Shown one piece after another: positions 2,628 through 10,324 of a DNA stretch of 10,874 bases; position 1 is the stretch's first letter; each line of letters begins with the position of its first letter. The notes under the pieces were generated by a model. That model was not told the origin of the DNA and made no database searches. It saw nothing but the letters and a program-made list of their open reading frames with translations. Made by a program: the position numbers and the translations under genes. This DNA comes from Coleofasciculus sp. S288 (GTDB lineage: Bacteria; Cyanobacteriota; Cyanobacteriia; Cyanobacteriales; Coleofasciculaceae), in contig JAIUYC010000045.1 of assembly GCA_020216575.1 (NCBI GenBank), forward strand, positions 1 to 10,874. The letters are read 5' to 3'.

Positions 2628-2814
2628 GAAGCTTTCAGCGCCAGCAACAGAGCAAGGAGACAGGATAAGAATAACATTTACTTAAAAAGAAGGAGGCGAA
2701 CGTAAGTCCCGGTCGTGATATCCTGATGTTTGCGACCTGCTCCCCAGCGTATGTAACGATGAGGTTGGCGGTTTCCCAATCCCTTTGGAACACTGTATAG
2801 AAGTAATCTCTGCC

Positions 2815-3423
2815 ATGTTCTCATCTGAATTTCCCCAAGAGAATGGGCAATCTGGATTGCCCCAAGAGAATGGGCAATCTAGTAATAGTAGCGTCACGCT
2901 AACCGACGAAGCGGGGCGATCGCTCAAATGTTACATTGAGCATTCCCTGGAAGTGGAAGGCTCGGAATACTTTCTCCTTCTCCCGGTAGACTCCCCAGTA
3001 GAAATTGTGGCTTGGGACGCCGAAGACGACGACGAAGCTGAAGCTACCCTCATTGAAGACGAGGAAGAAATCGACTTAATTTTCTCTGACGCCCAAGCGG
3101 TGCTTGCCGAGCAAAATCTAACCCTTAAGCGCACCGCTTATACGCTCACCGTTGCGGGTGAACTGCCATCGGTAGATGAGGACGAAATTCTCACGATTGA
3201 AATTGAGGATGACCAAGAAGACTTAGAACCCGAGCAGTTCCAGCTTCTCGCCAGCTTCTATCACGAAGAGCAGGAGTATGGAATCTATACTCCCCTAGAT
3301 CCACTCCTATTTTTTGCTCAAAAAAGCGAGTCAGGTGAAACTGAACTCCTTTCACCTGAGGAATTTAAAAAAGTGCAGCCACTGTTAGAAGAATTGCTGT
3401 TTGAGGATCTCGATGAAGAGTAG
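2815..3423 (+). CDS. DUF3727 (DUF1292-like) family protein, 202 aa
   Basis: This is an acidic soluble protein of unknown function, conserved in cyanobacteria and plastid-bearing eukaryotes. The N-terminal half (LTDEAGRSLKCYIEHSLEVEG, then YFLLLPVDSPVEIVAW) matches the DUF1292-like beta-rich core. It is followed by a strongly acidic stretch (DAEDDDEAEATLIEDEEEID). The C-terminal part (FQLLASFYHEEQEYGIYTPLDPLLFFA, then LLSPEEFKKVQPLLEELLFEDL) is the DUF3727 signature. I chose ATG 2815 over a TTG at 2785 because family members begin close to MFSSEFP. Residues 7-24 contain a near-perfect duplicated nonapeptide, PQENGQS(G/S), from a 27-bp tandem repeat. It is followed by mltG 193 bases downstream, an association usual in cyanobacteria. 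The ruvX/yqgF gene I would expect just upstream is absent; its place holds the GH13 relic. Confidence 0.85.
   Translation: MFSSEFPQENGQSGLPQENGQSSNSSVTLTDEAGRSLKCYIEHSLEVEGSEYFLLLPVDSPVEIVAWDAEDDDEAEATLIEDEEEIDLIFSDAQAVLAEQNLTLKRTAYTLTVAGELPSVDEDEILTIEIEDDQEDLEPEQFQLLASFYHEEQEYGIYTPLDPLLFFAQKSESGETELLSPEEFKKVQPLLEELLFEDLDEE
2833..2886 (+). repeat. 27-bp tandem duplication within the DUF3727 gene
   Basis: A 21-base string beginning CCCCAAGAGAATGGG occurs at 2833-2853 and identically at 2860-2880, giving a 27-base period. It keeps the frame and duplicates a nine-residue peptide near the N-terminus. The exact identity of the 21-base core suggests a recent duplication. Confidence 0.9.
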
Positions 3424-4720: not shown

Positions 4721-4841
4721 AGGACTAAGGGTTAGGGGCTAATCGGCGGACAAGCCAAACGTCAAAACTTCAAGGTTCTCCCTGTCTGTCCTAGTCCCTA
4801 GAACAGCCTGGCAGCAACAATCCACCCGTAAAAATTCTTCC

Positions 4842-4882
4842 CCTGCTCCCCCTGCTCCCCCTGCTCTCCCTGCTCTCCCTGC
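4842..4882 (+). repeat. 9-bp short tandem repeats
   Basis: Two copies of CCTGCTCCC and two of CCTGCTCTC follow each other without gaps and end in a partial unit. This is the kind of intergenic short tandem repeat common in filamentous cyanobacteria. It fills part of the 277-base spacer between mltG and the YqeG-type gene. The rest of that spacer shows no promoter or gene I can support. Confidence 0.85.
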
Positions 4883-9049: not shown

Positions 9050-10324
9050 ATGAGTGCTACCTCCCATTTTTCCTCCGTTGACTCGCCAACGAGCAACGAC
9101 GCTCAAAATCCCTCAAACCTTACTCAGCTGGATAAATCCCCTCAATCCAAAGCCACCTCAATTCCTCCGCTCGTGGGGGCATCTTTAGCGGAGTTGACGG
9201 AGTGGGTGCAACAGCAGGGACAACCCACTTATCGGGGGCGTCAGTTGCATCAGTGGATCTATGATAAAGGGGCGCGATCGCTCTCTGAAATTTCCGTCTT
9301 TCCCAAGCAATGGCGTGAATCTGTCGCTGATGTACCCATCGGACGCTCAGTTTTACACTACCGTTCAGAATCCCCCGATGGCACGGTAAAATATCTCCTG
9401 CGGCTGGCAGATGGTCATATTATAGAAACCGTCGGCATTCCCACTTTCACGAGAGGGGGAGATGACCTAACCCAAAATCCAAAATCCAAAATCCAAAATC
9501 ATTCGACTGAGCACTCGCCGAACGGTTCCGCTGAGGCTTCGGCGCGAGCGCTCAGCCGAGCAGTCACCGAACGCGTCCGAAGTCCAAAATCCAAAGAGCG
9601 CCTCACAGTTTGCGTGTCCTCTCAAGTTGGTTGTCCGATGGCGTGTGACTTCTGCGCTACTGGCAAAGGGGGATTCATCCGCAATTTAGCCCGTCATGAA
9701 ATTGTGGATCAAGTCTTGAGTGTTCAGGAAGACTTTGGACAGCGCGTTAGCAATGTGGTGTTCATGGGAATGGGAGAGCCATTGCTGAACCTAGACGCCG
9801 TTATCGGTGCTGTGAAGTCCCTCAATCAAGATGTGGGGATTGGCATGCGATCGCTTACAATCTCAACCGTTGGCATTTCCGGTCGTATCCGCAAACTGGC
9901 TGAATACCAACTCCAAATTACCCTCGCCATCAGTCTCCATGCTTCCAATCAGCCGTTGCGAGAAAAACTCATCCCTAGTGCGAAGCGGTATCCCCTCGAT
10001 GCTCTATTAGAAGAGTGCCGGGAATATGTGCAGCTAACAGGACGCCGAGTAACCTTTGAATACATCCTCCTCGCTGGACTCAATGACCTTCCGGAAAATG
10101 CGATCGAATTGGCACACCACCTGCGGGGGTTCCAGAGTCATGTCAATTTGATTCCCTACAACCCCATCAGTGAAGTGGACTATCAGCGTCCTAGTCCCCG
10201 CCGGATTCAAGCCTTTGTCGAAGCTCTGGAGAAGCAACATATTGCGGTTAGCGTTCGCCGCTCTCGCGGACTGGAAAAAGACGCCGCTTGTGGACAACTC
10301 CGAGCCTCAAAGCTTGCTCCATAA
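9050..10324 (+). CDS. rlmN: Dual-specificity RNA methyltransferase RlmN with an in-frame repeat insertion, 424 aa
   Basis: RlmN is a radical-SAM enzyme that methylates C2 of adenosine 2503 in 23S rRNA and of A37 in some tRNAs. The N-terminal domain contains [18 protein letters not shown] (60-77). The radical-SAM cluster motif is C195-x3-C199-x2-C202 in the segment [24 protein letters not shown] follows, and the two mechanistic cysteines are Cys188 (LTVCVSSQ) and Cys414 (DAACGQL). It is longer than usual (commonly about 350 residues) for two reasons. One is a polar N-terminal extension of about 40 residues. The other is roughly 49 extra residues (about 133-181) between IETVGIPT and KERLTVC, segments normally almost adjacent. 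The insertion matches intergenic-type repeat DNA. The core motifs are intact, so activity is likely retained. The start ATG lacks a clear ribosome site. Confidence 0.95.
9446..9592 (+). repeat. Cyanobacterial intergenic-type repeat inserted inside the rlmN reading frame
   Basis: Four CCAAAAT heptamers (9472-9499) are followed by a GC-rich module (9505-9580) and then another CCAAAAT plus CCAAA (9584-9595). The module holds the imperfect direct repeat GAGCACTCGCCGAACG (9509-9524) / GAGCAGTCACCGAACG (9558-9573), with 14 of 16 bases alike. It also holds the inverted pair GCTGAG (9530-9535) / CTCAGC (9551-9556). CCAAAAT heptamers are a known class of tandem repeat between cyanobacterial genes. The whole block is open in the rlmN frame and adds about 49 polar residues. 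Confidence 0.85.

Follow-up and report, generated by a model that had tools for sequence, protein, structure and literature searches.

The gene for RlmN in the window, by which we mean the whole stretch of 10,874 nucleotides of Coleofasciculus sp. S288 analysed here, raises the question of how a run of CCAAAAT heptamers and a GC-rich module came to lie in the reading frame of a conserved enzyme, a short way ahead of one of its invariant cysteines. An earlier note on this DNA had described heptamers flanking a GC-rich palindromic module, in frame before Cys188, and this arrangement is borne out in the form of (CCAAAAT)4, an 84-nt module and one more heptamer, as laid out in the following features:

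9050-10324, + strand: rlmN ORF, dual-specificity RNA methyltransferase RlmN with a repeat-derived loop, 424 aa
9446-9471, + strand: clade-specific part of the loop, reading FTRGGDDL up to the array; not heptamer DNA
9472-9499, + strand: heptamer array (CCAAAAT)4; TRF row 9472-9500, 4.1 copies, 100% matches
9500-9583, + strand: GC-rich module of 84 nt, codons 151-178, with nested palindromic elements; missing in the homolog P0002
9500-9524, + strand: module head CATTCGACTGAGCACTCGCCGAACG, a variant of the head common to other modules (CGTTCGACTGAGCGC...)
9538-9560, - strand: reverse-oriented palindromic element nested in the module, CTCGGCTGAGCGCTCGCGCCGAA, with 1 mismatch to the search pattern
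9584-9590, + strand: fifth CCAAAAT on the far side of the module, followed by CCAAAG
9611-9613, + strand: codon of Cys188, aligned with E. coli Cys118 (alignment and invariant column)

The identity of the protein is supported by a profile search, in which it scored 432 bits against TIGR00048 (cut-off 290), and its reading frame runs unbroken across array and module, the latter standing out by a GC content of 65%, where the array has 29% and the whole gene 52%. A phmmer alignment equates Cys188, which lies 10 residues after the end of the module, with Cys118 of E. coli RlmN (3rf9). Along with C195, C199, C202 and C414 it forms an invariant column of the RlmN alignment, so that the radical-SAM CX3CX2C motif and the two mechanistic cysteines are all present; with these columns invariant and the TIGR00048 score above its cut-off, the conserved core is intact, as the note had stated. 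When P0002 is compared with 3rf9 by phmmer, the first matched segment stops at chain residue 112 and the second begins at 113, 5 residues before the Cys188-equivalent, which indicates that the loop is an addition at a single point.

The module contains imperfect inverted repeats, the longest arms of which (9503-9518 and 9544-9559) are 88% complementary, and its single-stranded fold energy is the same as that of shuffled sequences (z 0.11). We accordingly rejected a strong hairpin, and use "palindromic" here in the sense of imperfect and nested, not of an unusually stable hairpin. An AlphaFold2 model of RlmN built from 33 close homologs was poor (mean pLDDT 59.9, with residues 134-181 below 50); its best Foldseek matches were RlmN entries at a TM of about 0.5 and an rmsd of about 18 A. 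The low pLDDT at 134-181 would fit a disordered loop and proves nothing. The earlier proposal of a surface loop is plausible, and this low-confidence model lends it weak support.

To understand the provenance of the loop we considered the best 120 of 7034 RlmN matches, a set in which the protein of the window itself is counted. From GIP to RLTVC the loop spans 52 residues here versus 3 (e.g. TDK) in 63 of these 120, in agreement with the claim that about 49 residues had been added, and the module occurs in 0 of the other 119; the 49-residue segment lacks the conservation in RlmN that would have refuted the note. The remaining 57 have longer loops, and in 56 of them the loop includes KSK- or PKS-like residues of the kind encoded by the heptamers. 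Among the best 120, lengths of 17, 24, 25, 32 and 23 residues were seen in 25, 5, 9, 9 and 2 proteins, respectively, and lengths of 7, 15, 22, 37, 40, 52 and 56 once each. The pairs 17/24 and 25/32 account for 48 of the 57 longer loops, and the members of each pair differ by 7 residues, i.e. three heptamers. P0002 has the array and is missing the 28 residues of the module, while being about 99% identical elsewhere (3 differences in 150 residues before the module and 2 in 245 after it), and hence amounts to a near-empty site, known as protein. Worn heptamers are also found in the rlmN DNA of two genomes of genus g2, namely G001, an assembly of nine contigs, and G002. The earlier suggestion that a module had been placed into an array is upheld in so far as P0002 and many relatives have NPKSKIQN without the module, and needs correction in that the array was already in the loop of the clade. 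As these comparisons show, the RlmN array would be common to the clade and predate the module, with the 84-nt module apparently a recent addition.

The same point of RlmN has received other material as well. P0024, P0034 and P0040 carry different extra residues in the loop, which makes it a recurrent site, and unrelated extra residues are seen at this point in other cyanobacteria, such as those encoded by CTCAACC/CTCAAAA units in Leptolyngbya FACHB-321. Parsimony on a tree computed without the loop residues calls for 10 or more changes of the long-loop label, and the well-supported branches of this tree for 3 or more. P0017 and P0019, which carry the insert, are isolated there among rows that lack it, and may be chimeras.

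The array and the GC-rich module are genome-wide repeats, and rlmN is one of many conserved genes that carry them in frame. A search with CCAAAATCCAAAATCC gave 19+17 matches in the genome versus 0+1 for the reversed control, where the copy numbers of array and module are to be read at the level of an assembly, the source being a MAG of 1069 contigs and 67% completeness. As the note had anticipated, the module occurs both between genes and inside them. Array and module together are in frame in the genes for ThiL, PurL, PdxA, SpeA, PhnE, RsgA, a kinase-AAA protein, a PKS and a GH38 mannosidase, and the array alone in those for HypD, MurD, PriA, LigA, LL-DAP aminotransferase, WD40 proteins and a hybrid histidine kinase; in C606 and C497 the frame is open without a Pfam match. 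The arrays of PurL and PdxA are worn or missing at the same spot in relatives. Among the best 120 of 3833 PdxA homologs, 8 rows of which were left unparsed, the loop measures 18 residues in P0122 (91% identical), 25 in P0123 and P0124, and 36 in this genome, i.e. successive steps of +21 bp, equal to three heptamers, and +33 bp, equal to the size of the PdxA module. P0122 thus represents an empty-site relative at the protein level.

Several side observations concern these and neighbouring sequences. In P0126-P0132 and P0199 a different peptide (PPPYQGG, PPLVRGEFG) recurs in the PdxA loop, a hint that this loop has also taken up a further palindromic repeat. The ORFs for LL-DAP aminotransferase (L019, C450) and HypD (L006, C761) also carry the repeat-like EGAEGAEGAGEAGG and GEQGEQGEMGEMG beside the heptamers, and several repeat families therefore seem to enter the same loops. 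Heptamer arrays occupy the same codon position across genera or families in thiL (L002 of the source genome G000 and L327 of G418) and in the kinase-AAA gene (G000, G018 and G418), and these shared positions reflect either old inserts or repeated targeting. Within the window, a 27-bp tandem repeat of 2.1 copies (PQENGQSGLPQENGQS) lies in frame at 2823-2880 on the + strand, inside the ORF 2785-3423, and is possibly another nine-codon coding repeat. An array of the 9-mer CCCCTGCTC (4.8 copies) lies outside long ORFs at 4840-4882, and TGCTCCCCC units, which are similar, adjoin palindromic elements in C145 and C924. An open-ended ORF at 3-599 on the + strand, its translation read by eye, looks like the C-terminal portion of a TnpB-type protein and shows a zinc-ribbon motif.

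In five more genomes, too, CCAAAAT arrays lie in frame within genes. Requiring a frame open for at least 80 codons on each side of the array, we counted 35 in-gene arrays among 103 in six genomes of four families: 12/21 in this genome, 10/42 in G018, 6/14 in G418, 1/6 in G493, 5/10 in G421 and 1/10 in G450, with the arrays of G450, G493 and G018 mainly outside long ORFs. The idea of an intergenic cassette, as the note had called it, needs correction for this genome, in which the heptamer arrays are not mainly intergenic: conserved ORFs hold 12 of the 21 array blocks in frame. These are 11 of the 21 blocks plus the block of C26 at the edge of the fetched stretch, with 193 codons before it. Blocks were defined by one mismatch in 16 bases in this genome and G018 and by exact matches of 21 bases in the other four; the G018 arrays come from the first 40 loci among 171 matches, blocks below 19 nt being left out, and those of G418, G493, G421 and G450 (14, 6, 10 and 10 arrays) from the first listed places. 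The array of C361, near a contig end, was left unclassified. Of the ORFs from the four further genomes 10 of 13 have Pfam matches, several of them spanning the array (ThiL through AIRS_C, MnmE, AAA_16, UvrA, UvrD), and L330, L338 and L352 have none. On a wider scale, (CCAAAAT)3 is present in 60 of 195 genomes of the order.

All 35 in-gene arrays read the hydrophilic PKSKIQN and 0 the equally stop-free ILDFGFW, a bias with a probability of about 6e-11 by a two-sided sign test if the arrays are independent, an assumption broken by sites shared by descent such as thiL and kinase-AAA. A CCAAAAT array has no stop in any of its six frames and, given that the antisense reading is equally stop-free, the sense-only count is not forced by stops. 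Antisense arrays that fall below the 80-codon threshold on one side, and are therefore uncounted, were found at C852, L249 and L266, and an in-ORF block at C231 is partly antisense (ILDFG...). At another four (L267, L268, L333 and L348) the open frames that come in from the two sides fail to join, and these arrays lie at apparent gene boundaries; among arrays entered from both sides by open frames of at least 80 codons, 0 break a gene. The candidate notion of CCAAAAT as a specially stop-free heptamer was weakened by a count of all heptamer classes, 590 of 1170 of which are stop-free on both strands. Stop-containing heptamers, a candidate control for these counts, appear among the reversed-pattern matches in G015, G006 and G005.

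The modules, sought with a single pattern in 19 chosen loci so that all counts are lower bounds, have distinct lengths of 84, 57, 33, 26, 27, 81, 48, 102 and 102 nt between CCAAAAT units. The 33-nt module recurs in phnE and pdxA and is identical in three genes, and the 27-nt module is also found in the kinase-AAA gene. Lengths are divisible by 3 in 8 of the 9 distinct modules (chance about 1e-3) and at 11 of the 12 loci (chance 4.7e-5); the 26-nt module of purL is not a multiple of 3, and the whole purL insert is still in frame. The in-gene module readings inspected use the two open sense frames, none of them the frame that contains TGA, and at each of the 12 loci counted the module points the same way with respect to CCAAAAT. 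The rlmN module equals the thiL module plus exactly 27 nt that hold the reversed palindromic element. Searched alone, this element has 12+10 = 22 copies in the genome against 0+0 in the control and is seen in 14 of 386 sampled genomes of the phylum. Its core is an imperfect palindrome of 25 bp (G...G), GTTCGRCTGAGCGCTCACGYCGAAG, which together with a dinucleotide makes up 27 bp or 9 codons. It is hosted by CCAAAAT, CTGCCCT, CTGCCTT, CCACTGA and other repeats, and deletion of the core and one dinucleotide gives back clean arrays of these four heptamers; contigs C547 and C613 contain one of the targets, CAGTGACCAGTTATCAGG, in unfilled form. The flanking dinucleotides are equal (CC/CC or TC/TC) at 11 of the 22 copies, 2 bp being a short signal, and unequal at the other 11, of which nine read GC/TC, in places where elements are nested, and the last two AC/CC and CT/CC. 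In-frame copies are seen within the HATPase_c of a hybrid histidine kinase (C97), in a WD40 protein (C781) and in speA, kinase-AAA and rlmN.

In our view these loops most probably arise from repeat DNA that expands in tolerant loops, is invaded by SDR-like palindromes (see below), is kept in frame by selection and is translated. A short seed in a tolerant loop would grow by slippage, with three heptamers giving 21 bp and hence the seven codons of NPKSKIQ; since the heptamer is stop-free in six frames, every array stays open. The 25-bp SDR-type palindrome is predicted to enter arrays at YC and to double the dinucleotide, so that each entry brings 27 bp or nine codons; later copies could nest in the earlier ones. 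To judge by the strand and frame counts, selection would then remove those events that break the frame, bring in stops or place the hydrophobic strand (ILDFGFW) in sense, leaving hydrophilic loops to survive. The same constraint on frame and strand suggests translation of the loop, which the enzyme would tolerate.

The last step would fail if the insert were present in the gene and absent from the protein, due to ribosome hopping or RNA removal, much as the GC-rich hairpin "byp" elements of yeast mitochondria are bypassed. The occurrence of short GC-rich imperfect palindromes within essential genes, and in RlmN near an essential cysteine, speaks for such a bypass, but skipped or spliced DNA needs no control of frame, strand or stops, and the constraints seen at 11 of 12 module loci (multiples of 3), in 35 of 35 in-gene arrays (hydrophilic strand) and in module readings that use open sense frames and avoid the TGA frame make it very improbable; nor is the hairpin signal above that of shuffles. 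We hold it to be no less remote that the locus is an artefact, i.e. a chimeric join at repeats, or a pseudogene. Assemblies do fail at repeats, the MAG is in 1069 contigs and the inserts of P0017 and P0019 among insert-free tree neighbours could be chimeras; yet rlmN is open with its catalytic columns intact, P0002 is about 99% identical outside the module, the decayed array part of the loop recurs in G001 (nine contigs) and G002, heptamer-derived loops are found in 56 of the best 120 homologs from many contigs, and many genes hold this arrangement in frame. That the loop might instead be an adaptive feature of RlmN, selected for its own function, the DNA repeat being secondary, draws some support from the persistence of loops of at least 17 residues across much of the clade and from the 57 of the best 120 homologs with more than 4 residues. 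We nevertheless think this quite improbable, given that length and sequence vary freely among close relatives, that insert-free relatives are common, that well-supported branches imply 3 or more gains or losses and parsimony 10, and that the same peptide appears in unrelated enzymes.

A reading to be taken more seriously, if short of even chances, dispenses with transposition and ascribes the spread of module-bearing arrays to gene conversion or template switching among heptamer arrays. This would accommodate the single orientation of 12/12 module loci relative to CCAAAAT and the identical 33-nt modules of three genes. However, the element is also found in CTGCCCT, CTGCCTT and CCACTGA arrays with equal flanking dinucleotides, and the fixed orientation would equally follow from a YC target, as the CCAAAAT strand has TC and CC and no GA or GG. 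Transposition and conversion or template switching may act together. Expansion and invasion of tolerant loops by translated repeats could be carried one step further to an open-ended loop generator in the enzymes of filamentous cyanobacteria, in which stop-free heptamer pads grow by 7-residue slippage steps and a 25-bp palindrome with its 2-bp duplication supplies exactly nine codons at every landing, making these the smallest known mobile elements, fitted in size and sequence to life inside proteins. We offer this last proposal tentatively, as one that we rather doubt.

Passages of PMC10969869 and PMC2996958 describe palindromic repeats in frame in proteins, in unstructured segments, from Rickettsia, Wolbachia and Methanocaldococcus jannaschii. 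The comparison with the Rickettsia palindromic elements (RPEs) drawn in the earlier note is apt: in both cases dispersed palindromic repeats lie in frame in unrelated conserved or housekeeping genes, RPEs being tolerated where globular proteins are unstructured, and here there are relatives with empty sites. Yet RPEs are put at about 150 bp, with described families at about 100-150 bp, and give one peptide each, in hosts that include Rickettsia, whereas the present unit, found in a free-living cyanobacterium, is 25 bp plus an apparent 2-bp duplication, sits in a heptamer array and nests in itself. It works like an RPE and, set apart by its size, is not a described member of that family. Closer in dimensions are the SDR families of 21-27 nt, which Elhai and colleagues are said to have described in 2008 in Nostoc punctiforme, reportedly publishing eight of them, as lying in tandem heptamers, self-nested and possibly mobile; part of PMC2884548 likewise presents SDRs as some 20 bp long and possibly mobile. 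The element matches this general description of the SDRs as a dispersed sequence of 21-27 nt in tandem heptamers with self-nesting; what is emphasised here is that it lives in frame within enzymes.

The STRR heptanucleotides of cyanobacteria are tandem 7-bp units with many arrays per genome and genus-specific units, and CCAAAAT resembles them as a tandem 7-bp repeat dispersed in the genome. According to sections of PMC4692102, GGGNATC heptamers (Xanthomonas, Nostoc) are under-represented in coding regions, with 89% and 93% intergenic in two xanthomonads. In contrast to these mostly intergenic STRR and GGGNATC repeats, CCAAAAT has 35 of 103 sampled arrays inside long ORFs. REPs of the GTAG and CGTC super-families, according to PMC3733652, bear a GTAG or CGTC tag at one end; like REPs and REPINs the present element is a short dispersed imperfect palindrome, but its 25-bp core is without either tag. 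In the literature searched, mostly outside subscription journals and hence no proof of absence, we found no report of such inserts in cyanobacterial proteins and nothing related to the inserted peptide or the repeat letters. What appears to be new, judged from sequence comparison, is that the in-frame outcome of repeats, a kind known from Rickettsia, Wolbachia and one archaeon, would extend to a large free-living phylum and be reached from much smaller units.

The intermediate states, namely no array, array, array with module and nested modules, are kept at the same sites in RlmN and PdxA, so that the passage from non-coding repeat to protein can be tested through comparison and through deletion of the loop. 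Such loops are common in these genomes, which calls for caution before they are taken for functional domains.
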